This document shows, in pieces, positions 1 through 50,342 of a stretch of DNA of 64,000 bases. The stretch comes from Solea solea (taxonomy: Eukaryota; Chordata; Actinopteri; Pleuronectiformes; Soleidae). The notes beneath the pieces are model-generated. The model saw only the letters and a list, made by a program, of their open reading frames with translations, had not been told where the DNA came from and ran no database searches. Numbering within the stretch: the stretch's first letter is position 1; each line of letters begins with the position of its first letter. A program made the translations under genes and the position numbers. The stretch lies in assembly GCF_958295425.1 (NCBI RefSeq), contig NW_026704062.1, forward strand, positions 62,001-126,000, read 5' to 3'.

Positions 1-280
1 GTGGGAGAATTTATGTTGCACTTTGTTTAATTTAAGAGGAAAAAGGAAATAATTGTTAAAAATGTATATTTTCCAGAACATTGTAAGAACAACCTTTTTC
101 TTGTTTATTGTTTCAAAAGGTTTTTCACCTACGTACCTGCTTACCTGAAACCTTAAAATCACAAAATAAAAGAAGATAAGAGGAAAAGAAAAGTGTGGTT
201 ATTGAGTGAAGTCCAGCAACTCTGGGTAGATGTCCAACTCCTTCAAGTGGAGATTGCACAAAGAAGGGGAGAACTTGACA
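1..280 (+). mobile_element. 3' part of a BEL/Pao LTR (same family as element B), cut by the window edge
   Basis: These 280 bases match positions 34701-34980 of element B's 3' LTR without a visible difference, so they are the last 280 bp of an 816-bp LTR. The piece ends in the same TTGACA and is followed by the same satellite junction (AAAACACATCC) as element B. It contains the LTR polyadenylation signal AATAAA at 165-170. The shared junction means it is a duplicated copy of the same insertion, not an independent one. Whether a whole element or a solo LTR lies to the left cannot be seen. Confidence 0.93.
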
Positions 281-849
281 AAAACACATCCAAACAGTGA
301 AATCATTGCAAAATCAAACACTGGCGGCATATAACTATATCTTATAAGATTTTAACTTTATTTGTGAGGTTTATGTTATGCGACAGTAGAAAATTGAAAA
401 AAATCAGAAAACAGCCGTATACTTGCTGAATGTGCACAAAACAGACACAAATAGAAAAACACATCCAAACAGTGAAATCATTGCAAAATCAAACACTGAG
501 GGTAAATAACTATATCTTATAAGATTTTAACTTTATTTGTGACGTTTATGTTATGGGACAGTAGAAAATTGAAAAAAATCAGAAAACAGCCGTATACTTG
601 CTGAATGTGCACAAAAACAGACACAAATAGAAAAACACATCCAAACAGTGAAATCAGCGAAAATCAAACACTGGCGGCATATAACTATATCTTATAAGAT
701 GTTAACTTTATTTGTGAGGTTTATGTTATGGGACAGTAGAAAATTGAAAAAAATCAGAAAACAGCCGTATATTTGCTGAATGTGCACAAAAACAGACACA
801 AATAGAAAAACACATCCAAACAGTGAAATCATTGCAAAATCAAACACTG

Positions 850-3760
850 AGGTTACAGAAGTATATCTTATAAGATGTTAACTTTATTTGTGAGGTTTAT
901 GTTATGGAACAGTAGAAAATTGAAAAAAATCTGAAAACAGCCGTATACTTGCTGAATGTGCACAAACACAGACACACATAGAAAAACACATCCAAACAGT
1001 GAAATCATTGCAAAATCAAACACTGAGGTTACAGAAGTATATCTTATGAGATGTTAACTTTATTTATGAGGTTTATGTTATGGAACAGTAGAAAATTGAA
1101 AAAAATCAGAAAACAGCCGTATACTTGCTGAATGGGCACAAAAACAGACACAAATAGAAAAACACATCCAAACAGTGAAATCATTGCAAAATCAAACACT
1201 GAAGGCATATAACTATATCTTATAAGATGTTAACTTTATTTATGAGGTTTATGTTACGGGACAATAGAAAATTGAAAAAAATCAGAAAACAGCCGTATAC
1301 TTGCTGAATGTGCACAACAAAAGACACAAATAGAAAAACACATCCAAACAGTGAAATCATTGCAAAATCAAACACTGAAGGCATATAACTATATCTTATA
1401 AGATTTTAACTTTATTTGTGAGGTTTATGTTATGGGACAGTAGAAAATTGAAAAAAATCAGAAAACAGCCGTATATTTGCTGAATGTGCACAAAAACAGA
1501 CACAAATAGAAAAACACATCCAAACAGTGAAATCATTGCAAAATCAAACACTGAAGGCATATAACTATATCTTATAAGATTTTAACTTTATTTGTGAGGT
1601 TTATGTTACGGGACAGTAGAAAATTGAAAAAAATCAGAAAACAGCCGTATACTTGCTGAATGCGCACAAAAACAGACACAAATAGAAAAACACATCCAAA
1701 CAGTGAAATCATTGCAAAATCAAACACTGAGGTTACAGAAGTATATCTTATAAGATGTTAACTTTATTTGTGAGGTTTATGTTATGGGACAGTAGAAAAT
1801 TGAAAAAAATCAGAAAACAGCCGTATACTTGCTGAATGCGCACAAAAACAGACACAAATAGAAAAACACATCCAAACAGTGAAATCATTGCAAAATCAAA
1901 CACTGAGGTTACAGAAGTATATCTTATAAGATGTTAACTTTATTTGTGAGGTTTATGTTATGGAACAGTAGAAAATTGAAAAAAATCTGAAAACAGCCGT
2001 ATACTTGCTGAATGTGCACAAACACAGACACACATAGAAAAACACATCCAAACAGTGCAATCATTGCAAAATCAAACACTGAGGTTACAGAAGTATATCT
2101 TATGAGATGTTAACTTTATTTATGAGGTTTATGTTATGGAACAGTAGAAAATTGAAAAAAATCAGAAAACAGCCGTATACTTGCTGAATGGGCACAAAAA
2201 CAGACACAAATAGAAAAACACATCCAAACAGTGAAATCATTGCAAAATCAAACACTGAAGGCATATAACTATATCTTATAAGATGTTAACTTTATTTATG
2301 AGGTTTATGTTACGTGACAATAGAAAATTGAAAAAAATCAGAAAACAGCCGTATACTTGCTGAATGTGCACAACAAAAGACACAAATAGAAAAACACATC
2401 CAAACAGTGAAATCATTGCAAAATCAAACACTGAAGGCATATAACTATATCTTATAAGATTTTAACTTTATTTGTGAGGTTTATGTTATGGGACAGTAGA
2501 AAATTGAAAAAAATCAGAAAACAGCCGTATATTTGCTGAATGTGCACAAAAACAGACACAAATAGAAAAACACATCCAAACAGTGAAATCATTGCAAAAT
2601 CAAACACTGAAGGCATATAACTATATCTTATAAGATTTTAACTTTATTTGTGAGGTTTATGTTACGGGACAGTAGAAAATTGAAAAAAATCAGAAAACAG
2701 CCGTATACTTGCTGAATGCGCACAAAAACAGACACAAATAGAAAAACACATCCAAACAGTGAAATCATTGCAAAATCAAACACTGAGGTTACAGAAGTAT
2801 ATCTTATAAGATGTTAACTTTATTTGTGAGGTTTATGTTATGGGACAGTAGAAAATTGAAAAAAATCAGAAAACAGCCGTATACTTGCTGAATGCGCACA
2901 AAAACAGACACAAATAGAAAAACACATCCAAACAGTGAAATCATTGCAAAATCAAACACTGAGGTTACAGAAGTATATCTTATAAGATGTTAACTTTATT
3001 TGTGAGGTTTATGTTATGGAACAGTAGAAAATTGAAAAAAATCTGAAAACAGCCGTATACTTGCTGAATGTGCACAAACACAGACACACATAGAAAAACA
3101 CATCCAAACAGTGAAATCATTGCAAAATCAAACACTGAGGTTACAGAAGTATATCTTATGAGATGCTAACTTTATTTATGAGGTTTATGTTATGGAACAG
3201 TAGAAAATTGAAAAAAATCAGAAAACAGCCGTATACTTGCTGAATGGGCACAAAAACAGACACAAATAGAAAAACACATCCAAACAGTGAAATCATTGCA
3301 AAATCAAACACTGAAGGCATATAACTATATCTTATAAGATGTTAACTTTATTTATGAGGTTTATGTTACGGGACAATAGAAAATTGAAAAAAATCAGAAA
3401 ACAGCCGTATACTTGCTGAATGTGCACAACAAAAGACACAAATAGAAAAACACATCCAAACAGTGAAATCATTGCAAAATCAAACACTGAAGGCATATAA
3501 CTATATCTTATAAGATTTTAACTTTATTTGTGAGGTTTATGTTATGGGACAGTAGAAAATTGAAAAAAATCAGAAAACAGCCGTATATTTGCTGAATGTG
3601 CACAAAAACAGACACAAATAGAAAAACACATCCAAACAGTGAAATCATTGCAAAATCAAACACTGAAGGCATATAACTATATCTTATAAGATTTTAACTT
3701 TATTTGTGAGGTTTATGTTACGGGACAGTAGAAAATTGAAAAAAATCAGAAAACAGCCGT
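850..3760. repeat. Higher-order repeat: six-monomer (1,056-bp) unit, about 2.7 copies
   Basis: The marker AAATCTGAAAACAGCC occurs at 931, 1987 and 3043, exactly 1,056 bp apart. The monomer variants keep the same order in each copy: TTATGAGATG monomer, GAATGGGCAC, TTACGGGACAATAG with ACAACAAAAGAC, then TTACGGGACAGTAG. Single differences between copies (for example CGTGACAA near 2313 against CGGGACAA) show independent mutation after duplication. The block ends near 3,760, where the copies stop matching. Confidence 0.85.
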
Positions 3761-6700
3761 ATACTTGCTTAATGTGCACAACAAAAGACACAAATAGAAA
3801 AACACATCCAAACAGTGAAATCATTGCAAAATCAAACACTGAAGGCATATAACTATATCTTATAAGATTTTAACTTTATTTGTGAGGTTTATGTTATGGG
3901 ACAGTAGAAAATTGAAAAAAATCAGAAAACAGCCGTATACTTGCTGAATGTGCACAACAAAAGACACAAATAGAAAAACACATCCAAACAGTGAAATCAT
4001 TGCAAAATCAAACACTGAGGTTACAGAAGTATATCTTATAAGATGTTTACTTTATTTGTGAGGTTTATGTTATGGGACAGTAGAAAATTGAAAAAAATCA
4101 GAAAACAGCCGTATACTTGCTGAATGTGCACAACAAAAGACACAAATAGAAAAACACATCCAAACAGTGAAATCATTGCAAAATCAAACACTGAGGTTAC
4201 AGAAGTATATCTTATAAGATGTTAACTTTATTTGTGAGGTTTATGTTATGGAACAGTAGAAAATTGAAAAAAATCAGAAAACAGCCGTATACTTGCTGAA
4301 TGTGCACAAAAACAGACACAAATAGAAAAACACCTCCAAACAGTGAAATCATTGCAAAATCAAACACTGAAGGCATATAACTATATCTTATAAGATGTTA
4401 ACTTTATTTGTGAGGTTTATGTTATGGGACAGTAGAAAATTGAAAAAAATCAGAAAACAGCCGTATACTTGCTGAATGTGCACAAAAACAGACACAAATA
4501 GAAAAACACATCCAAACAGTGAAATCATTGCAAAATCAAACACTGAGGTTACAGAAGTATATCTTATAAGATGTTAACTTTATTTGTGAGGTTTATGTTA
4601 TGGGACAGTAGAAAATTGAAAAAAATCAGAAAACAGCCGTATACTTGCTGAATGTGCACAAAAACAGACACAAATAGAAAAACACATGCAAACAGTGAAA
4701 TCATTGCAAAATCAAACACTGAGGTTACAGAAGTATATCTTATAAGATGTTAACTTTATTTGTGAGGTTTATGTTATGGGACAGTAGAAAATTGAAAAAA
4801 ATCAGAAAACAGCCGTATACTTGCTGAATGTGCACAAAAACAGACACAAATAGAAAAACACATCCAAACAGTGAAATCATTGCAAAATCAAACACTGAAG
4901 GCATATAACTATATCTTATAAGATTTTAACTTTATTTGTGAGGTTTATGTAACGGGACAGTAGAAAATTGAAAAAAATCATAAAAACAGCCGTATACTTG
5001 CTGAATGTGCACAAAAACAGACACAAATAGAAAAACACATCCAAACAGTGAAATCATTGCAAAATCAAACACTGAAGGCATATAACTATATCTTATAAGA
5101 TTTTAACTTTATTTGTGAGGTTTATGTTACGGGACAGTAGAAAATTGAAAAAAATCAGAAAACAGCCGTATACTTGCTTAATGTGCACAACAAAAGACAC
5201 AAATAGAAAAACACATCCAAACAGTGAAATCATTGCAAAATCAAACACTGAAGGCATATAACTATATCTTATAAGATTTTAACTTTATTTGTGAGGTTTA
5301 TGTTATGGGACAGTAGAAAATTGAAAAAAATCAGAAAACAGCCGTATACTTGCTGAATGTGCACAACAAAAGACACAAATAGAAAAACACATCCAAACAG
5401 TGAAATCATTGCAAAATCAAACACTGAGGTTACAGAAGTATATCTTATAAGATGTTTACTTTATTTGTGAGGTTTATGTTATGGGACAGTAGAAAATTGA
5501 AAAAAATCAGAAAACAGCCGTATACTTGCTGAATGTGCACAAAAACAGACACACATAGAAAAACACATCCAAACAGTGAAATCATTGCAAAATCAAACAC
5601 TGAGGTTACAGAAGTATATCTTATAAGATGTTAACTTTATTTGTGAGGTTTATGTTATGGGACAGTAGAAAATTGAAAAAAATCAGAAAACAGCCGTATA
5701 CTTGCTGAATGTGCACAAAAACAGACACAAATAGAAAAACACATCCAAACAGTGAAATCATTGCAAAATCAAACACTGAGGTTACAGAAGTATATCTTAT
5801 AAGATGTTAACTTTATTTGTGAGGTTTATGTTATGGGACAGTAGAAAATTGAAAAAAATCAGAAAACAGCCGTATACTTGCTGAATGCGCACAAAAACAG
5901 ACACAAATAGAAAAACACATCCAAACAGTGAAATCATTGCAAAATCAAACACTGAGGTTACAGAAGTATATCTTATAAGATGTTAACTTTATTTGTGAGG
6001 TTTATGTAATGGAACAGTAGAAAATTGAAAAAAATCAGAAAACAGCCGTATACTTGCTGAATGTGCACAAAAACAGACACCAATAGAAAAACACATCCAA
6101 ACAGTGAAATCATTGCAAAATCAAACACTGAAGGCATATAACTATATCTTATAAGATTTTAACTTTATTTGTGAGGTTTATGTTAACTGACAGTAGAAAA
6201 TTGATAAAAATCAGAAAACAGCCGTATACTTGCTGAATGCGCACAAAAACAGACACAAATAGAAAAACACATCCAAACAGTGAAATCATTGCAAAATCAA
6301 ACACTGAGGTTACAGAAGTATATCTTATAAGATGTTAACTTTATTTGTGAGGTTTATGTTATGGGACAGTAGAAAATTAAAAAAAATCAGAAAACAGCCG
6401 TATACTTGCTGAATGCGCACAAAAACAGACACAAATAGAAAAACACATCCAAACAGTGAAATCATTGCAAAATCAAACACTGAAGGCATATAACTATATC
6501 TTATAAGATGTTAACTTTATTTATGAGGTTAATGTTACGGGACAATAGAAAATTGAAAAAAATCAGAAAACAGCCGTATACTTGCTGAATGTGCACAAAA
6601 ACAGACACAGATAGAAAAACACATCCAAACAGTGAAATCATTGCAAAATCAAACACTGAGGTCACATAAGTATATCTTATGAGATGTTAACTTTATTTGT

Positions 6701-8150
6701 GAGGTTTATGTTATGGAACAGTAGAAAATTGAAAAAAATCAGAAAACAGCCGTATACTTGCTTAATGTGCACAACAAAAGACACAAATAGAAAAACACAT
6801 CCAAACAGTGAAATCATTGCAAAATCAAACACTGAAGGCATATAACTATATCTTATAAGATTTTAACTTTATTTGTGAGGTTTATGTTATGGGACAGTAG
6901 AAAATTGAAAAAAATCAGAAAACAGCCGTATACTTGCTGAATGTGCACAACAAAAGACACAAATAGAAAAACACATCCAAACAGTGAAATCATTGCAAAA
7001 TCAAACACTGAGGTTACAGAAGTATATCTTATAAGATGTTTACTTTATTTGTGAGGTTTATGTTATGGGACAGTAGAAAATTGAAAAAAATCAGAAAACA
7101 GCCGTATACTTGCTGAATGTGCACAACAAAAGACACAAATAGAAAAACACATCCAAACAGTGAAATCATTGCAAAATCAAACACTGAGGTTACAGAAGTA
7201 TATCTTATAAGATGTTAACTTTATTTGTGAGGTTTATGTTATGGAACAGTAGAAAATTGAAAAAAATCAGAAAACAGCCGTATACTTGCTGAATGTGCAC
7301 AAAAACAGACACAAATAGAAAAACACCTCCAAACAGTGAAATCATTGCAAAATCAAACACTGAAGGCATATAACTATATCTTATAAGATGTTAACTTTAT
7401 TTGTGAGGTTTATGTTATGGGACAGTAGAAAATTGAAAAAAATCAGAAAACAGCCGTATACTTGCTGAATGTGCACAAAAACAGACACAAATAGAAAAAC
7501 ACATCCAAACAGTGAAATCATTGCAAAATCAAACACTGAGGTTACAGAAGTATATCTTATAAGATGTTAACTTTATTTGTGAGGTTTATGTTATGGGACA
7601 GTAGAAAATTGAAAAAAATCAGAAAACAGCCGTATACTTGCTGAATGTGCACAAAAACAGACACAAATAGAAAAACACATGCAAACAGTGAAATCATTGC
7701 AAAATCAAACACTGAGGTTACAGAAGTATATCTTATAAGATGTTAACTTTATTTGTGAGGTTTATGTTATGGGACAGTAGAAAATTGAAAAAAATCAGAA
7801 AACAGCCGTATACTTGCTGAATGTGCACAAAAACAGACACAAATAGAAAAACACATCCAAACAGTGAAATCATTGCAAAATCAAACACTGAAGGCATATA
7901 ACTATATCTTATAAGATTTTAACTTTATTTGTGAGGTTTATGTAACGGGACAGTAGAAAATTGAAAAAAATCATAAAAACAGCCGTATACTTGCTGAATG
8001 TGCACAAAAACAGACACAAATAGAAAAACACATCCAAACAGTGAAATCATTGCAAAATCAAACACTGAAGGCATATAACTATATCTTATAAGATTTTAAC
8101 TTTATTTGTGAGGTTTATGTTACGGGACAGTAGAAAATTGAAAAAAATCA
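3761..8150. repeat. Higher-order repeat: ~1.4-kb block repeated 2,993 bp away
   Basis: The rare variants CTTGCTTAATGTGC (3766 and 6759) and AATCATAAAAACAGCC (near 4977 and 7970) recur with a spacing of 2,993 bp, or 17 monomers. The block 3,761-5,160 matches 6,754-8,150 in the order of its variants, including the shared ACACCTCCAAACAG and ACACATGCAAACAG monomers. CTTGCTTAATG also occurs near 5175, about 1,408 bp (eight monomers) after the first, so an eight-monomer spacing is nested inside. Boundaries are approximate. Confidence 0.75.
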
Positions 8151-8929
8151 GAAAACAGCCGTATACTTGCTGAATGTGCACAACAAAAGACACAAATAGA
8201 AAAACACATCCAAACAGTGAAATCATTGCAAAATCAAACACTGAGGTTACAGAAGTATATCTTATAAGATGTTTACTTTATTTGTGAGGTTTATGTTATG
8301 GGACAGTAGAAAATTGAAAAAAATCAGAAAACAGCCGTATACTTGCTGAATGTGCACAAAAACAGACACACATAGAAAAACACATCCAAACAGTGAAATC
8401 ATTGCAAAATCAAACACTGAGGTTACAGAAGTATATCTTATAAGATGTTAACTTTATTTGTGAGGTTTATGTTATGGGACAGTAGAAAATTGAAAAAAAT
8501 CAGAAAACAGCCGTATACTTGCTGAATGTGCACAAAAACAGACACAAATAGAAAAACACATCCAAACAGTGAAATCATTGCAAAATCAAACACTGAAGGC
8601 ATATAACTATATCTTATAAGATGTTAACTTTATTTATGAGGTTTATGTTACGGGACAATAGAAAATTGAAAAAAATCAGAAACAGCCGTATACTTGCTGA
8701 ATGTGCACAACAAAAGACACAAATAGAAAAACACATCCAAACAGTGAAATCATTGCAAAATCAAACACTGAGGTTACAGAAGTATATCTTATAAGATGTT
8801 AACTTTATTTATGAGGTTTATGTTACGGGACAATAGAAAATTGAAAAAAATCAGAAAACAGCCGTATACTTGCTGAATGTGCACAACAAAAGACACAAAT
8901 AGAAAAACACATCCAAACAGTGAAATCAT

Positions 8930-10720
8930 TGCAAAATCAAACACTGAGGTTACAGAAGTATATCTTATAAGATGTTAACTTTATTTATGAGGTTTATGTT
9001 ACGGGACAATAGAAAATTGAAAAAAATCAGAAAACAGCCGTATACTTGCTGAATGTGCACAACAAAAGACACAAATAGAAAAACACATCCAAACAGTGAA
9101 ATCATTGCAAAATCAAACACTGAGGTTACAGAAGTATATCTTGTAAGATGTTAACTTTATTTGTGAGGTTTATGTTATGGGACAGTAGAAAATTGAAAAA
9201 AATCAGAAAACAGCCGTATACTTGCTGAATGTGCACAAAAACAGACACAAATAGAAAAACACATCCAAACAGTGAAATCATTGCAAAATCAAACACTGAA
9301 GGCATATAACTATATCTTATAAGATGTTAACTTTATTTGTGAGGTTTATGTTATGCGACAGTAGAAAATTGAAAAAAATCAGAAAACAGCCGTATACTTG
9401 CTGAATGTGCACAAAAACAGACACAAATAGAAAAACACATCCAAACAGTGAAATCATTGCAAAATCAAACACTGAAGGCATATAACTATATCTTATAAGA
9501 TGTTAACTTTATTTGTGAGGTTTATGTTATGGGACAGTAGAAAATTGAAAAAAATCAGAAAACAGCCGTATACTTGCTGAATGTGCACAAAAACAGACAC
9601 AAATAGAAAAACACATCCAAACAGTGAAATCATTGCAAAATCAAACACTGAAGGCATATAACTATATCTTATAAGATGTTAACTTTATTTATGAGGTTTA
9701 TGTTACGGGACAATAGAAAATTGAAAAAAATCAGAAAACAGCCGTATACTTGCTGAATGTGCACAAAAACAGACACAAATAGAAAAACACATCCAAACAG
9801 TGAAATCATTGCAAAATCAAACACTGAGGTTACAGAAGTATATCTTATAAGATGTTAACTTTATTTATGAGGTTTATGTTACGGGACAATAGAAAATTGA
9901 AAAAAATCAGAAAACAGCCGTATACTTGCTGAATGTGCACAACAAAAGACACAAATAGAAAAACACATCCAAACAGTGAAATCATTGCAAAATCAAACAC
10001 TGAGGTTACAGAAGTATATCTTGTAAGATGTTAACTTTATTTGTGAGGTTTATGTTATGGGACAGTAGAAAATTGAAAAAAATCAGAAAACAGCCGTATA
10101 CTTGCTGAATGTGCACAAAAACAGACACAAATAGAAAAACACATCCAAACAGTGAAATCATTGCAAAATCAAACACTGAAGGCATATAACTATATCTTAT
10201 AAGATGTTAACTTTATTTGTGAGGTTTATGTTATGCGACAGTAGAAAATTGAAAAAAATCAGAAAACAGCCGTATACTTGCTGAATGTGCACAAAAACAG
10301 ACACAAATAGAAAAACACATCCAAACAGTGAAATCATTGCAAAATCAAACACTGAAGGCATATAACTATATCTTATAAGATGTTAACTTTATTTGTGAGG
10401 TTTATGTTATGGGACAGTAGAAAATTGAAAAAAATCAGAAAACAGCCGTATACTTGCTGAATGTGCACAAAAACAGACACAAATAGAAAAACACATCCAA
10501 ACAGTGAAATCATTGCAAAATCAAACACTGAAGGCATATAACTATATCTTATAAGATGTTAACTTTATTTATGAGGTTTATGTTACGGGACAATAGAAAA
10601 TTGAAAAAAATCAGAAAACAGCCGTATACTTGCTGAATGTGCACAAAAACAGACACAAATAGAAAAACACATCCAAACAGTGAAATCATTGCAAAATCAA
10701 ACACTGAGGTTACAGAAGTA
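8930..10720. repeat. Higher-order repeat: five-monomer (880-bp) tandem duplication
   Basis: The rare variant TATATCTTGTAAGATG occurs only at about 9135 and 10015, 880 bp apart. The following monomers (TTATGCGACAG, then TTATGGGACAG, then TTACGGGACAATAG) have the same order in both copies. Boundaries were judged by eye. Confidence 0.8.
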
Positions 10721-12065
10721 TATCTTATAAGATGTTAACTTTATTTGTGAGGTTTATGTTATGGGACAGTAGAAAATTGAAAAAAATCAGAAAACAGCCG
10801 TATACTTGCTGAATGCGCACAAAAACAGACACAAATAGAAAAACACATCCAAACAGTGAAATCATTGCAAAATCAAACACTGAAGGCATATAACTATATC
10901 TTATAAGATTTTAACTTTATTTGTGAGGTTTATGTTATGGGACAGTAGAAAATTGAAAAAAATCAGAAAACAGCCGTATACTTGCTGAATGTGCACAAAC
11001 ACAGACACACATAGAAAAACACATCCAAACAGTGAAATCATTGCAAAATCAAACACTGAGGTTACAGAAGTATATCTTATGAGATGTTAACTTTATTTGT
11101 GAGGTTTATGTTATGGAACAGTAGAAAATTGAAAAAAATCAGAAAACAGCCGTATACTTGCTGAATGTGCACAAAAACAGACACAAATAGAAAAACACAT
11201 CCAAACAGTGAAATCATTGCAAAATCAAACACTGAGGTTATAGAAGTATATCTTATAAGATGTTAACTTTATTTCTGAGGTTTATGTTATGGGACAGTAG
11301 AAAATTGAAAAAAATCAGAAAACAGCCGTATACTTGCTGAATGTGCACAAAAACAGACACAAATAGAAAAACACATCCGAACAGTGAAATCATTGCAAAA
11401 TCAAACACTGAAGGCATATAACTATATCTTATAAGATGTTAACTTTATTTGTGAGGTTTATGTTATGGGACAGTAGAAAATTGAAAAAAATCAGAAAACA
11501 GCCGTATACTTGCTGAATGTGCACAAAAACAGACACAAATAGAAAAACACATCCAAACAGTGAAATCATTGCAAAATCAAACACTGAAGGCATATAACTA
11601 TATCTTAAAAGATTTTAACTTTATTTGTGAGGTTTATGTTATGGGACAGTAGAAAATTGAAAAAAATCAGAAAACAGCCGTATACTTGCTGAATGTGCAC
11701 AAAAACAGACACCAATAGAAAAACACATCCAAACAGTGAAATCATTGCAAAATCAAACACTGAAGGCATATAACTATATCTTATAAGATGTTAACTTTAT
11801 TTGTGAGGTTTATGTTATGGGACAGTAGAAAATTGAAAAAAATCAGAAAACAGCCGTATACTTGCTGAATGTGCACAAAAACAGACACAAATAGAAAAAC
11901 ACATCCAAACAGTGAAATCATTGCAAAATCAAACACTGAGGTTACAGAAGTATATCTTATAAGATGTTTACTTTATTTGTGAGGTTTATGTTATGGGACA
12001 GTAGAAAATTGAAAAAAATCAGAAACAGCCCAATACTTGCTGAATGTGCACAAACACAGACACAC

Positions 12066-12070
12066 ATAGA
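12066..12070. repeat. Target-site duplication ATAGA, left side of element A
   Basis: ATAGA here and at 16581-16585 flanks element A. Removing the element and one copy restores an intact monomer junction, CACACATAGAAAAACACATCC. Confidence 0.85.
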
Positions 12071-12451
12071 TATTATAGCAGCTCAGCCTCAAACTTCCGC
12101 TACTGAGGTTTCTGACTCCGGATGACCTGGTTGACGCGCTTTGCCTTGGCGATCGCTCTTTTGTACTCTGATTGAATGTCCACGCTGTTCGTTTCGTTGC
12201 AATATATTGGTTTATTGCTGTGCGTTTCCTTTGCATAATGAAATTCCTTCAAACAATCCACAACCATTCATGAGTAGCGCCTCCGCGGTACAGCGGTCGA
12301 AAACCGTTTGCCCTTCCGGTTCACAAACCTGACAATGACAGTGATAGTGCCACCTATATACACCTGAGCTCCCCCCTCTGAGAGCACAGCGACCCCACAC
12401 ACACATTGAGTGAATTACACCAAACCTCATAACACACATTCGGCTCCTATA
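12071..12451 (-). repeat. Element A 3' LTR (sense is minus strand)
   Basis: This 381-bp stretch matches 16200-16580 at an offset of 4,129 with no difference seen. In sense orientation it begins TATAGGAGCC and ends GCTATAATA, so it lacks the usual TG...CA ends. The polyadenylation signal AATAAA (minus strand) lies at 12211-12216, and a TATA-like TATATAGG lies at 12353-12360. Confidence 0.93.
12211..12216 (-). promoter_or_regulatory. Polyadenylation signal AATAAA in the element A 3' LTR
   Basis: The plus strand reads TTTATT, so the element's sense strand reads AATAAA. It lies about 140 bp downstream of the TATA-like box, a plausible position for the end of the R region. The matching signal in the 5' LTR is at 16340-16345. 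Confidence 0.6.
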
Positions 12452-12559
12452 CACCGGCCCCTAATTGTTAATGGCAGCCTGACATAACAATTCAAACACA
12501 ACAAGACAGGAGCAAATAATGTGTTGATACAGTTACATTAAAGTGCAGTACAGACAAAT
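12452..12559 (-). other. Element A 3' untranslated tail and polypurine tract
   Basis: Non-coding stretch between the integrase remnant stop codon and the 3' LTR. In sense, the bases directly before the LTR read TTAGGGGCCGGTG, a purine-rich run that could prime plus-strand DNA synthesis. Nothing else is recognisable here. Confidence 0.55.
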
Positions 12560-12715
12560 CTATATTCCATGTACCAAACAAAGTTTCGTCACTGGCCTTT
12601 CAATAATGTTGGCCCTTGTCTGTAACCTCACGGAACGCACCAGCCCTTGTTTATCTGGAAAAACCTCCAGAACCCTGCCAAGCAGCCATGAGAGGTTCCA
12701 GGCCATAGCATCCTC
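12560..12715 (-). pseudogene. Integrase C-terminal remnant, out of frame with gag-protease
   Basis: Read on the minus strand from 12715, 51 codons and a TAG stop (12562-12560) contain LLGRVLEVFPDKQGLVRSV and, near the end, RPVTKLCLV. This is the pattern of the BEL/Pao integrase C-terminal tail: a GRV motif, then PD.KGLVR, then RPV.KL at the protein's end. It is all that remains of pol downstream of protease. The chimeric frame (12651-15746) runs through the same bases in another phase and stops inside it at 12653-12651, giving about 20 meaningless C-terminal residues there. The remnant starts immediately after the captured coiled coil, so the breakpoint lies at about 12716-12725. Confidence 0.75.
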
Positions 12716-15700
12716 TGAGAGAATTCTGTTCCTGTAGGGTGGTGGTGTGTCGCTGCAGTGCCACCATATGGTTGTTAAGAGAAGTGTTCTGGTTCTCCAA
12801 CTGCTTGATCTGGTCCTTCAACAGGCTGCTCTCTGTCTGCAGAGAGGCATTTACTGTCTTATGAGCAGTGGTTAGCTCGGCACGCAGTGCAACATTGAGT
12901 GCTTTGCTCTCCTGAAGCTTCTTATCCAGAGTGGAGATTTTCTCCTCCTTTATCATTGACTGTTGGACAGTTTCCTCCAGTCGAGACTCAAGTAGCCTGT
13001 ACCTGCTGTCGTCCAGCGTTTCTTCGAGCTTGCACACAGAAATCCTGTTCACCATCGCCAAGGGCAGCTCCACCTCCGAAGCACCACTGTTTCCATTCAG
13101 TGGTCCGTTAACAACCCATCCAAGCACTGTCTTTATAGCATATGGGCCATTCCCGCTACTGTTAATGACCTCCAAGGGTTCTAAAATCCTGGGAGCGTTG
13201 GTTCCAATTAACAGGTCGACGTTTGCTTTTATGTTTGGGATGTTTACCTTGGACAAATATGGCCACTTTGCCAGTTCTTCAGATTTTACCATGTTATTAA
13301 CATTGACTGGCATTTGTGTTTGTGTGAGAACCTCTGGGAGAATATGAAAGTCATTGCTGTCCAGAGTAGATACCTCCAAGCCAATTAATGAATATGATGG
13401 AACCACTGTTTTCTGCCCCATCGTGCTCAACAGGAAGTTGGTTTTTCTCCCTGTGATGTTTAGCTTCCGCATTAGTTGTTCTGAGCAGAATGTGGCTGAA
13501 CTTCCTGGATCCAAAAAGGCATACGTTTTTATTATGTGATTTCCCTTTGCACTTTTGACCTTCACAGGCAGGATGGATAACACACACCGGTCCTTACCGG
13601 CCCCTGTATATCCACATGTTTTAGGTGAAGTTGGCTGGTGAGATGTTTCAGACTTTTCCGGGACTGGTTGCCTTTTAATATGAAGCACAGTGGGGTGGGT
13701 TTGACTACATATTTTACATGTCAAGCGATCTTCACAGTCACGACTCATGTGTCCCACACATAAACATGCAAAACAAACCCCCCTTTGCCTCAGAATCTGA
13801 ATCTTTTCCTTGTGCTTCCAACCCTTGAACTGTTTGCAGTCCTCCAAAGAGTGGCTATGAGCACAGCAAAGGCATTCAGTCTTTTCTGGGCCTGCTGTGG
13901 GCTCCTCAACCTTTTCCGGCGCTTCCATAGATGTTATAGTGGTGGCCATGACATTTCCTTTCATATTGTATCGAGGTTGTGCTTTAAACCCAGTGACAGA
14001 CTTTATCCCAGCAACACCAGATGACTCCTGTATCTCACCAAACAAAGGGTCAGAAAGAATCCTGACACGACGCTCAATGAACATGACCATATCCATGAAG
14101 CAAGCTGGTTGATTGGTTGTCTCCATTATGTCATGGGCTATGGTCCTCCATTGCTCCCTCATTCTGAATGGCAGCTTTGACACAATGGCTCTTATATTTA
14201 CTGGCATATTCAGTTCCTGCATGTACTGAAGCTCTTCCATTACATTGCAGCATCCACGCAGAAATAATGAATAGGCTTGCAGAGTTCTTACGTCCTCAGA
14301 TTTAACTGTCTGCCAGGCCAGAGCCTTTTCCATATAAGCACTTGCAATTTTGTACTGATTTCCAAAATGTTTCTGGAGAAGTTCCTTTGCCACTGCATAA
14401 CCACGCTCTGGAGCCATATGCTGGCAGCTTCGCACCAGTTCACGTGGCTGTCCTCTTGTGAACTGTTCCAGATAGTACAAACAATCCGCTTGTCCTGCCT
14501 TTTCCTCTACTCCTTGCTCAAAGGCTTTGATGAACGTCCTGTAATGGAGAGGGTCCCCCTCAAATGTGGGAATATCTCGTGGTGGTAGTGTCATCATACG
14601 CTGTTGCTGTACCAGAGCTGCTGTTATTTCATTTTGCCTTTGCATTATGGTAAGTATGTCAGGTGGACTTTGGCCAATGTGGTGTTGTTGCATAGGTTGA
14701 GCAGTTGATGACTGGTGTTGAAAATGCGGCAATGTTTCAGATATGTTGACCTGTTGCTGCTCTTTTTGGCTGCACTGGTGCATTGAAGCAGCTTGGACCC
14801 ATTGCTCAGTTTCCTTGGGTTGCACATCCTTTAATAAGATTTCCTTGGGTGGTAGTGACCATTTTGACAGTTCATTTTGTGTTGATTTCCATGCAACAGG
14901 ATGGTACGTCTTTGCCATAGGGTTCAACGTGGTGACAGAGTTTTCAAGTCTTTTCCTTTTCTCCTTTTCCAAATAGGAATTCATGCCATTGCTGTGTGCT
15001 TGAGAAGAACCTCTCCGCTCTGAAGCCTGTAATACAGCCAGCTTAGCAGTGGATGCAGCTATTTCAGCTTGTAAATCAAGCTGTTCTCTTTTCCTTTTCA
15101 GCTGCTGTTCCTGTTCCTCCAAGTCATGCTTTTCTTTTAAAGCTGCAGCCAGAGCAACAAGCGCTGCCCTTTCTGCTTCAACCATTATGGCTGCAGAGGA
15201 TACAGTACTTGATCTTACACTACTACGGCTCCTATGGCTCGAGTGCTTACTAATATTTGAAACACTGTCATTAGGATTAACTTCATCCACAACATTACCA
15301 TTTTCGTTTGCAACACTGTCATCATTTGATACCCACATTTTTGTGTTAGCAATACACTCACTAATAGGCAACATTTTTGCCTTGAACCATATTTCATGTT
15401 TTTCCTTTTCCTCACATGGCAAAGAATCCAACAAATTAATATGCATGTATTTTGCTTCATAACAGACTTCCAACAATTCATCAAGAGCATCCTGTACCTT
15501 TGTTTTATCATTCTTTAGCATCAAATCTTGTATTGATTTTCTTATGATGGCTGTTTGATTTAACTTAGCTTTTCTGCCAGACTGCAACCTGTCTAATTCA
15601 TTAGCAAGGGCCTTTGCAGTGAGTTTAACCACACGTTTTTGGGTTTGCGTTTCAATACCGCCAGCCACACTACTAGATGTAATAACATTTTGCACATTAG

Positions 15701-15746
15701 TCCCAGCAGCTTCAATTGTGTCCGACATAGCGCTGCTTCTTCTCAT
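12651..15746 (-). CDS. Chimeric Gag-protease polyprotein with CCDC88-like coiled-coil end
   Basis: A 1,031-residue open frame encoding the particle protein and maturation protease of a BEL/Pao element. In order: a charged N-terminal region with a strong E/K/Q-rich coiled coil (about 190-255); a Gag domain of DUF1759 type (about 385-565; FEGDP at 395); Cys/His zinc knuckles (625-690; CLCC, CFACLCVGH, CKICSQTH); and a DUF1758-type aspartic protease (about 720-880) with FLDPGSS, catalytic Asp746, ending in the usual LGWVVNGPL. The next BEL motif, RISVCKLEE, breaks off near residue 909. Instead of reverse transcriptase come about 100 residues of heptad-rich coiled coil (about 910-1010), then about 20 residues read out of frame from an integrase remnant. 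M1 (ATG at 15746) or M7 could be the start; both have a purine at -3. No stop or frameshift interrupts gag-protease, so the protein could still be made. It cannot copy itself without RT and integrase in trans. Confidence 0.88.
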   Translation of the reverse strand: MRRSSAMSDTIEAAGTNVQNVITSSSVAGGIETQTQKRVVKLTAKALANELDRLQSGRKAKLNQTAIIRKSIQDLMLKNDKTKVQDALDELLEVCYEAKYMHINLLDSLPCEEKEKHEIWFKAKMLPISECIANTKMWVSNDDSVANENGNVVDEVNPNDSVSNISKHSSHRSRSSVRSSTVSSAAIMVEAERAALVALAAALKEKHDLEEQEQQLKRKREQLDLQAEIAASTAKLAVLQASERRGSSQAHSNGMNSYLEKEKRKRLENSVTTLNPMAKTYHPVAWKSTQNELSKWSLPPKEILLKDVQPKETEQWVQAASMHQCSQKEQQQVNISETLPHFQHQSSTAQPMQQHHIGQSPPDILTIMQRQNEITAALVQQQRMMTLPPRDIPTFEGDPLHYRTFIKAFEQGVEEKAGQADCLYYLEQFTRGQPRELVRSCQHMAPERGYAVAKELLQKHFGNQYKIASAYMEKALAWQTVKSEDVRTLQAYSLFLRGCCNVMEELQYMQELNMPVNIRAIVSKLPFRMREQWRTIAHDIMETTNQPACFMDMVMFIERRVRILSDPLFGEIQESSGVAGIKSVTGFKAQPRYNMKGNVMATTITSMEAPEKVEEPTAGPEKTECLCCAHSHSLEDCKQFKGWKHKEKIQILRQRGVCFACLCVGHMSRDCEDRLTCKICSQTHPTVLHIKRQPVPEKSETSHQPTSPKTCGYTGAGKDRCVLSILPVKVKSAKGNHIIKTYAFLDPGSSATFCSEQLMRKLNITGRKTNFLLSTMGQKTVVPSYSLIGLEVSTLDSNDFHILPEVLTQTQMPVNVNNMVKSEELAKWPYLSKVNIPNIKANVDLLIGTNAPRILEPLEVINSSGNGPYAIKTVLGWVVNGPLNGNSGASEVELPLAMVNRISVCKLEETLDDSRYRLLESRLEETVQQSMIKEEKISTLDKKLQESKALNVALRAELTTAHKTVNASLQTESSLLKDQIKQLENQNTSLNNHMVALQRHTTTLQEQNSLRGCYGLEPLMAAWQGSGGFSR
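12722..13018 (-). other. Captured host-like segment: CCDC88 (girdin/daple) coiled coil
   Basis: Within the chimeric frame, residues of about 910-1009 form an uninterrupted heptad coiled coil with no counterpart in BEL elements. Phrases such as RLLESRLEETVQQS, DKKLQES, IKQLENQNTSLNN and ALQRHTTTLQEQN match my recollection of the central coiled coil of girdin/daple (CCDC88A/CCDC88C), proteins that link G-protein signalling, actin and dishevelled. This rests on recognition, not on a search. The segment is intron-free although long vertebrate coiled-coil genes are split into many exons, so capture from a spliced mRNA is likely. It seems to join two girdin regions that are not adjacent in my memory of the parent, possibly by exon skipping. 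A generic coiled coil of another long protein is the alternative. Confidence 0.62.
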
Positions 15747-16199
15747 GATGAATAGTCAGTTCATAAACAGCCAGCAGCAATCAACGGATCCGTCGCAAAG
15801 TTTATTGTCCCCCTCGCTTCGGCGACCAATGCATTGGGTTTATGCCCGGCGATGTGTGCACACAATTTGAATGGCCATTTACCGGTGTAGCGCTACACAT
15901 ACCTCCGTGCGTTGGGCGCCGTGCGGTAGTTCCATGGTCTGATGGTCCGATGATCCGATGCTCCACAGCCAGGTTCAGCTCCAGCACCGCCCGTCTTGCG
16001 TCTCGATATCCACGTCCAGACGCTCTCCAAATTCCCTCAAATTCCAAACCGCTTCCAGCAGCTCCCCCCGTCTTGCGCTCTCGTGAGCGGGTGCGATGAC
16101 GGCGTTCACGGGATCTGGACCTCCGGCGTTCTCTTCGTTCCGTACCAAACGTGCCTTAAGTGTCCCACAAAGTTCCAACTGGTGCAGGTTTTCGACTAA
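15747..16199 (-). other. Element A 5' leader
   Basis: A 453-bp non-coding leader between the 5' LTR and the gag start. Directly after the LTR the sense strand reads TTAGTCGAAAACC, which does not start with the TGG expected of a tRNA primer-binding site. The string TGGTCGCCGAAGCGAGG (sense; bases 15828-15812) sits about 370 bp further in and looks more like such a site, but its distance from the LTR argues against it. A GGAG|GTATGT sequence in sense resembles a splice donor; its use is unproven. Confidence 0.5.
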
Positions 16200-16580
16200 T
16201 ATTATAGCAGCTCAGCCTCAAACTTCCGCTACTGAGGTTTCTGACTCCGGATGACCTGGTTGACGCGCTTTGCCTTGGCGATCGCTCTTTTGTACTCTGA
16301 TTGAATGTCCACGCTGTTCGTTTCGTTGCAATATATTGGTTTATTGCTGTGCGTTTCCTTTGCATAATGAAATTCCTTCAAACAATCCACAACCATTCAT
16401 GAGTAGCGCCTCCGCGGTACAGCGGTCGAAAACCGTTTGCCCTTCCGGTTCACAAACCTGACAATGACAGTGATAGTGCCACCTATATACACCTGAGCTC
16501 CCCCCTCTGAGAGCACAGCGACCCCACACACACATTGAGTGAATTACACCAAACCTCATAACACACATTCGGCTCCTATA
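16200..16580 (-). repeat. Element A 5' LTR (sense is minus strand)
   Basis: The 381-bp partner of 12071-12451. As the 5' LTR in sense it would hold the active promoter: the TATA-like TATATAGG is at 16482-16489 and AATAAA is at 16340-16345. The ends are TAT...ATA instead of TG...CA. Confidence 0.93.
16482..16489 (-). promoter_or_regulatory. TATA-like box in the element A 5' LTR
   Basis: The sense strand reads GTGTATATAGGTGG here, about 90 bp from the LTR's 5' end and about 140 bp upstream of the polyadenylation signal. This is a reasonable U3 promoter position. Motif evidence only. Confidence 0.5.
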
Positions 16581-16585
16581 ATAGA
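16581..16585. repeat. Target-site duplication ATAGA, right side of element A
   Basis: Matches 12066-12070. The satellite resumes in the same monomer phase immediately after it. Confidence 0.85.
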
Positions 16586-27674: not shown

Positions 27675-27757
27675 TGTGAAGTCAAACTAAAGAAATTAAT
27701 AAACTCGTGTTGCAAACCGGAAAGGAACCTTTCGGCAGTCCGAGTTGCCGCACGGAC

Positions 27758-27764
27758 TATAAAA
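27758..27764 (+). promoter_or_regulatory. TATA box in the element B 5' LTR
   Basis: TATAAAA in the context GGACTATAAAAGAGGCGG, an unusually good core-promoter match, 84 bp into the LTR. Transcription would start roughly 30 bp downstream. The copy in the 3' LTR is at 34248-34254. Confidence 0.7.
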
Positions 27765-28374
27765 GAGGCGGCACACAACATCAGCGAAGACGCAAACTGA
27801 AGCAGTGCTTAGCGCAAAAATATCCAACCCCGTGCAAACAAATCTACAAACGCCAGAGAGGCAGCCGGTAAGACACCAAGCCCATCAGGAGACCCAGCGG
27901 ACAATTGAAGTGAAATGTTTGTGCAGGCGATAGCCGCTAGCGTTAGCCACGGGGCCGAACCGGCAGTGCGGTCGTTAACCCTATAAATGCCAGTGTGTGT
28001 CATGTTTGATTCTCATTCATAATTTAATGATGTCATGATTGTTTAAGTTAAGAACATGATTGTTGAGTGAGCTAATATGTTGCAGATAAATTAAGTTAAA
28101 ATGATTATGATATTATATTATTGTGGTGACATTATTTAAATTAAGTAAATGTAAAATATTTAAAATCTGAAATTAACTTAATGAAATCCCTAAATGTATT
28201 AATAATAACAGTGGGAGAATTTATGTTGCACTTTGTTTAATTTAAGAGGAAAAAGGAAATAATTGTTAAAAATGTATATTTTCCAGAACATTGTAAGAAC
28301 AACCTTTTTCTTGTTTATTGTTTCAAAAGGTTTTTCACCTACGTACCTGCTTACCTGAAACCTTAAAATCACAA

Positions 28375-28380
28375 AATAAA
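28375..28380 (+). promoter_or_regulatory. Polyadenylation signal AATAAA in the element B 5' LTR
   Basis: AATAAA about 110 bp before the LTR end. The equivalent functional copy for the element's RNA is in the 3' LTR at 34865-34870. With the TATA box at 27758 this implies a long R region of roughly 600 bp. Confidence 0.55.
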
Positions 28381-28490
28381 AGAAGATAAGAGGAAAAGAA
28401 AAGTGTGGTTATTGAGTGAAGTCCAGCAACTCTGGGTAGATGTCCAACTCCTTCAAGTGGAGATTGCACAAAGAAGGGGAGAACTTGACA

Positions 28491-28697
28491 GTGAAAAACC
28501 GCCAGTACCATAAAGCTGGCCAGGAAAAAGTACAGGAGCTTAAAGCTGGAACAGCAGGAGCAAAAACCTGGAATCCTGGAAAGGAAAAAGAGTGGAGCAT
28601 AAAGCAACATTAAAGCACCATAAGCAACATTAAAGGCGCCATTGGAAACTCCACTTTTCAAATTCACAATTAAAGAACCTTAAAAATAAAAGTAAAC
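28491..28697 (+). other. Element B 5' leader
   Basis: A 207-bp leader between LTR and gag. It starts GTGAAAAACC, without the TGG typical of a tRNA primer-binding site; a TGGCCAGGAAAAAG string lies 26 bp further in (28517) and is the nearest candidate. Short A-rich direct repeats (AAGCAACATTAAAG, twice) occur near 28601-28637. The leader ends at a good initiation context, AAACATGG. Confidence 0.6.
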
Positions 28698-31600
28698 ATG
28701 GCTAATCAAGAAGCTGGAAAATCAGTTGAACAATTGAAACTTGAAAGAACGACAGCCAAAAGAGTGTTTTCCCGTCTGGTCAACAGTATAACCCGGTCAC
28801 ATACAGACATGTCTGAAGAAGAGCTCAGAGACAATTTCAACAAACTCAAGGCACTAGGAGAGAACGTCATGGAGGCAAACGATGAGCTGGAAGCTGGCTT
28901 CATTGCAGATCTCGAAGCAGAGCTGGAAACAGATGAAGTCATGTTAACGGAGCAGGAAAAAACCGACCTGGCAAAAACTACAAATGAGAGCCAAGAGAAG
29001 CTGAAGGAGGTCAAGAGGTTGCTCCAGAAGACTCTTTGGGTCAATTTTGGAAGTAGTGAAATGTCTATAGCACTACAAGCAGCAGAGGCAGCATGTGAAC
29101 GCGTCGCTGCTGTGCAACCAAACATTAACCAGGAAGCGTATCAATTCATGCTGGACCAACTGAAAGGGTTGGTAGGAACAGCAAAGGACACGCATGGCCG
29201 ATGGAAACAGTGGGCCCCACCAGAGGCTCAGGGGGAGCTTCAGAGGCATGTGAGAGGGCTCGAACTTCACGTCCCCTTGATGGTCTCCAGAAAGGCTGAC
29301 TTCATACAAGCAACCATAAAGGAGGATACTGATAGACAAGCCCAGGTGGGAGCTACATCTAATTATCGCATACCAACCATCAAGTTAAAGCCAACAGCCC
29401 TCCCCAAGTTTGGTGGCATCAAACGTGATTTTCACAGGTGGAAAAAGGACTGGGAAGCGCTGCAGAGTCAAGGAGAGCCAACAGGCTCAAAAGAAGTGAA
29501 AAAGGTCCAGCTACTAGACAGCCTGGAGGATAAGATCACACGAGACCTTCGGCTCACGGCTTACAACACATCTGATGACATCTTCCGTGTGCTAGAGAAC
29601 CGCTACGGCAACCAAACATCCATTGCCATAGAAATAGTGGAGGAGATACAGAAGATGCCAGCTGACAAAAGTCACCAGCCACGGAAAATCGTCGACTTAA
29701 TTCAAGCTGTGGAAAAAGCACTTCAAGATTTGAGTGACCTTGGAGACACAGGTGCTATAAAAAATCCCCTTGTGACTAAGTCCATTGAAAGTAAACTCCC
29801 GGAGACACTCAAGAAGGAATGGCTTGTGTATGCAGCTGACAAGAGAAATGATGTGACTTCAAGAAATCGGTTCGACAGTCTCTTGGCATTCCTCAAAGAC
29901 CAGGAGAGCATATATGAACAACTTGAGCAACTGAAGGAGGAAGAGCCAAGCAAGAGAGAAACCAAGGTGGAGCCGAGATATGCCAGAACCAAGTCAACCA
30001 AATCAAGCAACGACCAGGAAGGGTGTGTGGTCTGCAGTGATGTAAAACACAAGAGGAAGATCTATTTTTGCAGACAGTTCCGAGCGCTGAAACTAGCAGA
30101 GAAGAGAGCTGTAGTAAAAAGGTTGGGAGCATGTAAGAGATGTTTGGAGGTTCATGGCGAGGGCTCACAGTGCAAACCTGGATTCCTGTGCAGAAACCAG
30201 GACTGCAAGGATGCAGATACTCCTGAGCACCACTTCTATCTGTGCCCCAACGCTGAGGCGAAGAAAAGCAGCGATGGTCAGAAGAGGAGCAGGTTTGGTC
30301 CGGAAGGGGATAAAGGCAGGAGGAAGTACACAGAGGAGCAGGAGGATTTCTTCGGGAAACTCTCACCTGAATTGGCAAACCAATGCCGAAATGTGTTTTC
30401 CAATACTGCATCCAGGGCTTTCAATACTGTCAAAGACCAACCAAGCCTTTTAGGGGAAAGCGGACTTCAAGAGCTGCCAGTACTGATGATGCTTGTCGAG
30501 GTCACAGCGAACGCTGGACAGAAAATTGGAACATTAATCGATTTGGCTTCTGACACCAATTACATAACCCACAAGACTGCAAGCAGGCTAAACCTCAAAA
30601 ATGAAGAAGTCACACTTGTCGTCCATGGAGTTGGGGGCATGGAGGTTCGTGTAGAGACGAAACGATACCTCCTCAAGATCAGAGTGAAAACACCAAAAGG
30701 CACTCTCAGAGCCCACCAATTGGTGTGTTATGGACTTGACAGCATTGCAGAGATACACAAACATGTGGAACCAAAGAAGCTCCAGAGATTCTTCCCAGAT
30801 GCACTGCTGGATGAACTCCGGAGACCTAAAGAAATAAGTCTGCTCATTAGCCACAAAGAAGGTCAACTAGCACCACAGAGGATCAGAGCTGTTGGAGACC
30901 TTGTGCTGTGGGACGGTCCACTGGGGAGAACAGTGGGAGGAACGCATCCTGAACTCTTCGAAGAACTCACCGTGTCAGCTCACATGTCGAAGACACACTT
31001 CGCGAGGTCGATGAGAGCAGCGGCTGCAAGATATGAGGAACAACTCACCAGCATGGTCCCAGAGCGTCCGCTGGCAAATAATCAAGGCACCATCCAGCTC
31101 TGTGAATCAAGCACTTCAGCCATCAACCAAGACTTTTTAAAGTGGTGGAGATGGGACAGCATCGGCGCAGGATGTGAGCCAAAGTGTGGAGGCTGCCGCT
31201 GTGGGAACTGTCAGCCGGGTGGCAAAGAAATGACTCTTGCCGAGGAGCGAGAACTCCAAGTGGTGAAAGATGGTCTCACCTACGTCACAGGAGACGCCCA
31301 CAGCAAAGAACCACACTGGCATACCAGATATCCATGGGTAGAGGACCCAGACTCCCTGCCGAACAATAAAAGGACCGTGGAGGCCACATTCCTCAGGACG
31401 GAAAAGCAACTGGCCAAAGAACCTGAATGGAAAGCTGCCTATACTGCTCAAGTCCATGACATGATAGATCGGAAAGCTGCAACCAAGTTATCCAGAGACA
31501 CTGTGATCAACTGGCATGGGCCAGTATGGTACGTGAGTCACCTCATTGCTCCAAACCCCCACTCTGTCACAACCCCTGTGAGACTTGTTTGGAACAGTAG

Positions 31601-34118: not shown

Positions 34119-34150
34119 AGCTGTCGATCTTCACATCGTTTCCAGGCGAA

Positions 34151-34164
34151 GATCGAGTGGGAGG
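34151..34164 (+). other. Polypurine tract of element B
   Basis: GATCGAGTGGGAGG lies immediately before the 3' LTR (TGTGAAG). A purine-rich run here is the standard primer for plus-strand synthesis in LTR elements. Confidence 0.75.
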
Positions 34165-34980
34165 TGTGAAGTCAAACTAAAGAAATTAATAAACTCGTGT
34201 TGCAAACCGGAAAGGAACCTTTCGGCAGTCCGAGTTGCCGCACGGACTATAAAAGAGGCGGCACACAACATCAGCGAAGACGCAAACTGAAGCAGTGCTT
34301 AGCGCAAAAATATCCAACCCCGTGCAAACAAATCTACAAACGCCAGAGAGGCAGCCGGTAAGACACCAAGCCCATCAGGAGACCCAGCGGACAATTGAAG
34401 TGAAATGTTTGTGCAGGCGATAGCCGCTAGCGTTAGCCACGGGGCCGAACCGGCAGTGCGGTCGTTAACCCTATAAATGCCAGTGTGTGTCATGTTTGAT
34501 TCTCATTCATAATTTAATGATGTCATGATTGTTTAAGTTAAGAACATGATTGTTGAGTGAGCTAATATGTTGCAGATAAATTAAGTTAAAATGATTATGA
34601 TATTATATTATTGTGGTGACATTATTTAAATTAAGTAAATGTAAAATATTTAAAATCTGAAATTAACTTAATGAAATCCCTAAATGTATTAATAATAACA
34701 GTGGGAGAATTTATGTTGCACTTTGTTTAATTTAAGAGGAAAAAGGAAATAATTGTTAAAAATGTATATTTTCCAGAACATTGTAAGAACAACCTTTTTC
34801 TTGTTTATTGTTTCAAAAGGTTTTTCACCTACGTACCTGCTTACCTGAAACCTTAAAATCACAAAATAAAAGAAGATAAGAGGAAAAGAAAAGTGTGGTT
34901 ATTGAGTGAAGTCCAGCAACTCTGGGTAGATGTCCAACTCCTTCAAGTGGAGATTGCACAAAGAAGGGGAGAACTTGACA
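34165..34980 (+). repeat. Element B 3' LTR
   Basis: The 816-bp partner of 27675-28490. Polyadenylation signal AATAAA at 34865-34870 and TATA box at 34248-34254. Its last 280 bp are also found at 1-280. Confidence 0.96.
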
Positions 34981-49890: not shown

Positions 49891-50338
49891 CTTGCTGAAT
49901 GTGCACAACAAAAGACACAAATAGAAAAACACATCCAAACAGTGAAATCATTGCAAAATCAAACACTGGCGGCATATAACTATATCTTATAAGATTTTAA
50001 CTTTATTTGTGAGGTTTATGTTATGGGACAGTAGAAAATTAAAAAAAAATCAGAAAACAGCCGTATACTTGCTGAATGTGCACAAAAACAGACACACATA
50101 GAAAAACACATCCAAACAGTGAGATCATTGCAAAATCAAACACTGAGGGTACAGAAGTATATCTTATAAGATGTTTACTTTATTTGTGAGGTTTATGTTA
50201 TGGGACAGTAGAAAATTGAAAAAAATCAGAAAACAGCCGTATACTTGCTGAATGTGCACAACAAAAGACACAAGTAGAAAAACACATCCAAACAGTGAAA
50301 TCATTGCAAAATCAAACACTGACGGCATATAACTATAT

Positions 50339-50342
50339 CTTA
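50339..50342. repeat. Target-site duplication CTTA, left of solo LTR copy 1
   Basis: CTTA here and at 51753-51756. Joining the flanks restores TATATCTTATAAGAT. Confidence 0.8.

Follow-up and report, generated by a model that had tools for sequence, protein, structure and literature searches.

How does a retrotransposon come to carry a host-like coiled coil, in frame and directly behind its protease, and what could such a coil do there? The question is raised by element A, a BEL/Pao retrotransposon in the 64-kb window analysed here (64,000 nucleotides of Solea solea contig NW_026704062.1; all positions given are those of the window). We put at about 0.85 the probability that element A captured a segment of the host gene CCDC88C (Daple) behind its Gag-protease part, losing most of pol. 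This value applies to capture alone: a one-off accident and a recurrence due to short sequence similarity, both weighed below, compete only with the further step that assigns the coil a function.

A recent insertion in a satellite array

Most of the window consists of a 176-bp satellite (280-12069 and 16581-64000), near-continuous apart from inserts and perhaps centromeric or heterochromatic, which element A interrupts (Table 1). The two LTRs of the element are identical at 382 of 382 bp, ATAG stands on both sides, and the flanks, once joined, restore a satellite unit that is found 26 times in the window as CACATAGAAAAACAC, so that the intact LTRs and target duplication described in the initial annotation are confirmed. 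Because of the identical LTRs and the target-site duplication, this copy must have been made by retrotransposition, and its insertion is recent. The same annotation held that the chimera itself had been mobilised, which is borne out in part; the capture could date from the very reverse-transcription event that made this copy, and no second copy of the chimera lies within the 64-kb window. The LTR carries TATATA and AATAAA, which we take to be the likely promoter and polyadenylation signals. On the coding strand the LTRs start with TATAGG and end with AATAT, not TG...CA, and the usual tRNA primer site (TGG...) is not seen by eye directly after the 5' LTR.

Table 1 Positions of element A and its parts in the window
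Feature	Position	Strand	Remarks
Target-site duplication ATAG, 3' LTR side	12066..12069	.	
Element A (BEL/Pao retrotransposon)	12070-16580	-	Interrupts the 176-bp satellite array
3' LTR	12070..12451	-	382 bp, identical to the 5' LTR
Integrase C-terminal remnant	12563..12724	-	Frame other than that of the fusion ORF; tblastn with BEL relatives
Fusion ORF	12651..15746	-	1,031 aa: Gag-protease, CCDC88C segment and 22 out-of-frame residues
Captured CCDC88C (Daple) coiled-coil segment	12720..13022	-	Residues 909-1009
In-frame loss of ~40-45 host residues (AHKTV/NASLQ)	12851..12852	-	Relative to P0008, P0009, P0016 and others
Putative site of a host intron, not present in element A	12866..12867	-	After LRAELTT; protein-level inference
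BEL/Pao Gag-protease part	13023..15746	-	Residues 1-908
Aspartic protease match (Asp_protease_2)	13347..13520	-	Weak, E 0.039, below cut-off
DUF1759 (BEL/Pao Gag) match	14139..14564	-	Pfam E 1.5e-9, above cut-off
5' LTR	16199..16580	-	382 bp; TATATA at 16489-16484, AATAAA at 16345-16340
Target-site duplication ATAG, 5' LTR side	16581..16584	.	

A second BEL/Pao element (element B, 27675-34980, plus strand) has identical 816-bp LTRs and one 1,806-aa ORF with Pfam matches to DUF1759, RVT_1, Peptidase_A17, H2C2 and DUF5641. It has no Pfam match to an integrase core at E ≤ 1e-3; its sequence passes from MADLP to QLAGPNLFV, where the core seems to have been deleted in frame, and element B too would need help to move. 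Elsewhere in the array, two insert-containing stretches (50330-51769 and 57896-59335), identical over the 1,440 bp compared and 7,566 bp apart, probably arose when a large unit of the array was recently duplicated; neither contains an ORF of at least 100 aa.

Gag and protease are kept, most of pol is lost

The fusion ORF is a single minus-strand frame inside element A. Together with the LTRs and their duplication, its DUF1759 Gag and its protease, whose motif FLDPGSSATFC recurs in the relatives P0085 and P0154, are those of the BEL/Pao group, and the RT, RNase H and integrase core of an autonomous member are absent. Between protease and 3' LTR, no match to BEL relatives was found except the integrase C-terminus. 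Since the sequence re-enters that C-terminus in another frame, the inserted piece stands in place of RT, RNase H and the greater part of integrase, and element A thus cannot move on its own proteins: it is a non-autonomous BEL/Pao derivative.

Relatives were collected with residues 360-930 of the fusion ORF as query, and the best 120 of 361 matches at E ≤ 1e-10, with 45-80% identity to element A, were retained; the query included 22 residues of the window's coil, so that ascertainment was almost, not wholly, independent of the coil. Closest in the tree of these 120 are P0068 (Merluccius polli) and P0069 (Sebastes umbrosus), and a scan of viral contigs gave no relatives of element A. At the position where element A leaves BEL, P0069 reads RISVCKLEEMLTKQYNHDFNE, and what follows its RISVCKLEE (MLTKQYNHDFNE) is the usual RT start in the relatives, which element A lacks.

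The captured segment matches fish CCDC88C

The donor search (query residues 900-1031, database of 5.77 billion sequences) gave 66 matches at E ≤ 10 among 325 candidates; it admitted proteins of 0.55-1.75 times the query length, which removed those above ~1,800 aa from the candidates, presumably including full-length CCDC88A and many full-length CCDC88C. The best match reached E 2.0e-29 at 74% identity. CCDC88C or Daple was the name of 52 of the 66 (one name incomplete), the other 14 bore generic names or none (CH-domain, HOOK N-terminal, hypothetical, unnamed, uncharacterized), and among proteins within this length bracket, CCDC88A lying outside it, none of the 66 at E ≤ 10 was named as another gene. 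No BEL Gag-protease was found in these matches at E ≤ 1e-3. On this similarity we assign the captured segment to fish CCDC88C/Daple, ahead of the other genes searched. The initial annotation had let the frame depart from BEL at RISVCKLEE, about residue 909, had placed the segment at 12722-13018 and had named a CCDC88 gene as its probable source; BEL sequence indeed runs through E908, the limits are correct within a few bases (12720-13022) and the gene is CCDC88C, with a best match of E 2e-29. The BLASTP check it proposed, applied to residues 909-1009, likewise led to CCDC88C or unnamed proteins, and the best 120 of 361 BEL relatives are without the segment.

Two other assignments were tried and rejected. 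One is a generic coiled-coil match, set against which the CCDC88C matches are strong: no Pfam match of the captured piece came near the cut-off (best E 0.011) and its PDB matches are at chance level (best E 0.46). The other is a BEL domain: close relatives have RT sequence at that place, and the segment was not found in the best 120 of 361 relatives, where its best match has E 0.45.

Identity to the donors was compared over two blocks totalling 92 columns, for which 45 of the 66 matches, representing 37 distinct sequences, were usable (no more than five gaps, no match to a different part of the protein). Several are isoforms of one species, and the figures leave out host insertions, the linker and one codon that is lacking after QQSM. 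Over these columns the window copy has a mean identity of 0.795 to the 37 hosts, which among themselves have 0.794, and its best identity is 0.846 (Scophthalmus). Residues private to the window copy number 3 of 92, as against 0-10 in the 37 hosts; even the nearest of the sequences listed is too distant for protein divergence to date the capture.

Junctions and internal losses

At the 5' junction, element sequence extends through E908 of RISVCKLEE and donor sequence starts at about T909 (13022), where hosts read EHTLED or EYTLED (EHTLDD in P0013). Donors (NREKLLQQEHTLEDSRYR) and window (NRISVCKLEETLDDSRYR) are similar in register here, sharing NR, E and TL, which would allow for a switch some codons before this point; this likeness was seen, with small variations, in five of the six CCDC88C hosts examined (P0003, P0005, P0006, P0008 and P0010) and is absent in P0004. 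At the 3' junction, the donor runs to N1008/S1009 (12720) and the integrase C-terminus match, in its different frame, begins at 12724 and ends at 12563; in tblastn, seven relatives share 55-69% identity with it, and others as little as 42%. AATTCT(C) at this point can be read both as donor Asn-Ser and as element Ile-Leu (at codon level, from proteins); donor and element may have five to seven bases in common here. The fusion ORF then continues for 22 out-of-frame codons to its end.

Inside the segment, one codon is missing after QQSM. Many host proteins have ~43-50 residues between the two blocks, of which the window keeps the first few linker residues, AHKTV (compare ARQTV and GQKTV in hosts), before it jumps to NASLQ. 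After LRAELTT, 7 of 25 host proteins (P0003, P0005, P0006, P0010, P0018, P0036 and P0040) run into unrelated residues, mostly VRTYIH-like, that look like intron read-through, and P0002, the best donor match, may hold a five-residue piece, ERTHM, which P0036, from the same species, also has. No such insert stands in the window. Since an apparent intron is read through in these seven hosts and is absent from the window, the segment likely derives from spliced ccdc88c mRNA.

Apparent coils at the same boundary in two further BEL lineages

We inspected the tails behind the protease in the best 120 of 361 relatives, 102 of them over ~110 residues. In most of them RT follows, the protein stops, or the sequence skips to later pol; in P0085, P0132 and P0163 the tail is unmatched or shifted and no longer than ~60 residues, and in P0105, P0154 and P0169 non-BEL stretches occur at other places. 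Two of the 120 run for more than 150 residues into non-BEL sequence directly after the boundary: P0126 (Oryzias sinensis), whose tail is KIF20B (best match Oryzias latipes Kif20Ba, E 1.4e-48), and P0115 (Rhinichthys klamathensis, LOC130078447), whose tail is RRBP1 (best match Phoxinus, E 1.5e-87), both in a composite search. An automatic screen for non-BEL stretches failed to flag P0126 and the window's own captured piece and is unreliable, probably owing to matches between one coil and another; we therefore counted chimeras by inspection of the tails.

Both proteins leave BEL at the protease/RT boundary used in element A, and all three breakpoints lie within ~14 codons after the NR of VNRIS/ANRIS. 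In P0126 the element sequence continues past the KLEE stretch through LWQQ. In P0115 about 13 residues (~758-770, KEQIYELESVREE) that match neither side clearly, possibly from a third source, lie between BEL and RRBP1, whose match begins at EDSVASLQ. In a midpoint-rooted tree of the 120 Gag-protease sequences the three chimeras fall in separate BEL lineages, and at the protein level they would represent independent captures of three donor genes at one boundary. With KIF20B and RRBP1 coils there in two database proteins, the swap seems to recur, although both are gene models known from protein alone, for which a fusion made by the predictor is conceivable.

The tail of P0126 has 0.78 identity to O. 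latipes (on a scale where O. latipes and O. melastigma share 0.80) and that of P0115 has 0.85 to Phoxinus (Phoxinus to the nearest other host, 0.86). Private residues number 21 of 189 in P0126, against 2 in its nearest host and 5-41 in other hosts, and 27 of 291 in P0115, against 8 and 2-42. Mean identity to hosts is 0.604 for P0126 (0.648 among hosts) and 0.759 for P0115 (0.810 among hosts). By these comparisons both captured parts appear diverged beyond their nearest hosts and within the overall range of hosts. At 0.73, the identity of the P0126 tail to O. melastigma is below that to O. latipes (0.78), as would fit a capture within the genus Oryzias; we take O. sinensis to be so close to O. 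latipes that 78% would be too low for its ordinary gene.

Directly behind NRIS, two other proteins depart from the usual course, P0068 for a later part of pol and P0130 to end; of the Gag-protease relatives, P0068 stands nearest to the window element and P0130 to P0115. In the window NRIS is followed by GT (TCT GTG), where gene predictors may splice.

Predicted structure of the coil

AlphaFold models residues 904-1010 as a single helix, with 9 of 11 ten-residue blocks at pLDDT 72-90 and the first two at 38 and 66; the model as a whole is poor outside the helix (mean pLDDT 52.8, pTM 0.26, 18 sequences in the alignment), which leaves protease dimerisation without structural support. Compared with shuffled sequences, the heptad pattern is significant in the window segment (p = 0.016) and in P0126 (none of 500 shuffles), and not in P0115 (p = 0.058). 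Two post-protease stretches of other elements, taken as controls, gave p 0.25 and 0.17.

Discussion

The capture that we favour would have occurred in a particle holding host mRNA, where reverse transcriptase, copying element RNA, would have changed template to spliced ccdc88c mRNA and, near the integrase C-terminus, returned to element RNA. The product would carry LTRs, Gag, protease and 101 CCDC88C coil residues in frame where RT began, and the enzymes that made and inserted this copy would have been supplied in trans by an intact element. As a mechanism this is already known from other LTR elements: reviews give accounts of a change of template between LTR-element RNA and mRNA packaged with it (PMC5408686, PMC8232201, PMC13317346) and cases of LTR-mediated retroposition in mosquito, zebrafish and chicken (PMC5408686, PMC13317346, PMC8232201). 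LTR-mediated retroposition, as these sources present it (Tan et al. 2016, via PMC5408686, PMC8232201), and element A are alike in that part of a host mRNA was copied between LTRs; in element A, however, the piece stands in frame behind a BEL Gag-protease, at the protease/RT boundary, and other coiled-coil genes have seemingly been taken up at the same BEL site. From what these reviews relate, the nearest parallel in print is maize Bs1, an LTR element with pieces of three cellular genes (PMC5408686, PMC13317346); Bs1 is a plant element that unites three different genes in one, whereas the BEL chimeras show one structure class in three lineages. Bdelloid LTR elements have extra ORFs, some with coiled coils, according to the accessible part of another paper (PMC5408684).

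In the literature searched (titles and starts of abstracts, mostly without subscription papers) no BEL element with a host coiled coil appeared, and the recurrence with coiled coils at one site may be new. Acute transforming retroviruses with gag-onc fusions are defective, carry a host coding piece behind Gag and need a helper. Element A resembles them in being defective, in its fused host coding piece and in its need of a helper, and differs in being a BEL/Pao retrotransposon with the fusion behind the protease and nothing that points to growth signalling.

Proteases of the retroviral type work as dimers. The coil could take over the role of RT by holding two precursors together and so activating the dimeric protease. 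We base this proposal on the loss of RT and on effects seen in HIV: in the part of the report available to us, a leucine zipper placed behind HIV-1 protease increased Gag cleavage (PMC3291649), and RT-RT contact is proposed, in the accessible text of a second paper, to promote protease activation (PMC11998509). The zipper construct also reduced particle yield through premature cleavage (PMC3291649, same part), so such a fusion could equally harm. That construct and element A both have a coil directly behind a retroelement protease; the former was made in the laboratory, while the coil of element A is natural and its effect only proposed. This is the role for the coil that we prefer, tentatively and at less than even odds; a broader benefit to Gag assembly is the next choice. 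The general form of the proposal is on the unlikely side: fish BEL/Pao elements would repeatedly give rise to defective parasites in which everything from RT onward is swapped for a coil from host mRNA (CCDC88C, KIF20B, RRBP1) that pairs precursors and switches on the protease. Loss up to the integrase C-terminus is observed in element A; P0126 and P0115 are known up to their coils.

It is quite possible, if not the outcome we would bet on, that the fusion is a one-off accident of the reverse-transcription event that produced this copy, its coil without function and never moved again. Three private residues of 92, within the 0-10 of the 37 hosts, are as expected of a young capture, and neither the window nor the best 120 of 361 relatives holds a second copy. 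Against an accident, two other BEL lineages have coils at the same boundary, with open frames and captured parts more diverged than the nearest host (some other hosts equal or exceed them in private residues, with up to 41 and 42); moreover, the window fusion is in frame, a one-in-three chance, and kept its frame through two internal losses, of one codon and of ~40-45 codons.

Recurrence might also reflect short similarity in place of selection, if the protease/RT boundary resembles coiled-coil coding sequence and thereby steers template switching, which we think rather unlikely. The clustering of all three breakpoints within ~14 codons after NR would fit, as would the register shared by CCDC88C donors and window in five of six hosts examined and the TQNRV that RRBP1 hosts have near BEL TANRI; template switching at short similarities is described in the review text available (PMC5408686). 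The likeness, however, is known at the level of protein, not of bases, and P0126 runs past KLEE through LWQQ before it leaves the element. An old, lineage-specific BEL part that merely resembles CCDC88C is close to inconceivable, for although charged stretches also occur in fish BEL Gag itself (the one examined in the window, residues 186-262, shows no heptad pattern, p = 0.84), the segment has ~80% identity to CCDC88C of many percomorphs in two blocks, its best BEL match among the best 120 of 361 relatives is E 0.45, and close relatives have RT sequence at that position.

We return to the capture of host coils, of which three chimeras in all are few cases. The uptake of host genes by LTR elements is, to our knowledge, mostly regarded as a random process. 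That three lineages each have a host coiled coil in one and the same place after the protease suggests that one structure class is favoured there; if so, retroelement assembly and protease activation would become testable with natural material, and, should the coil act as proposed, the swap would be the natural counterpart of the HIV protease-zipper construct. The chimeras show a route by which host coiled coils are joined to capsid proteins.
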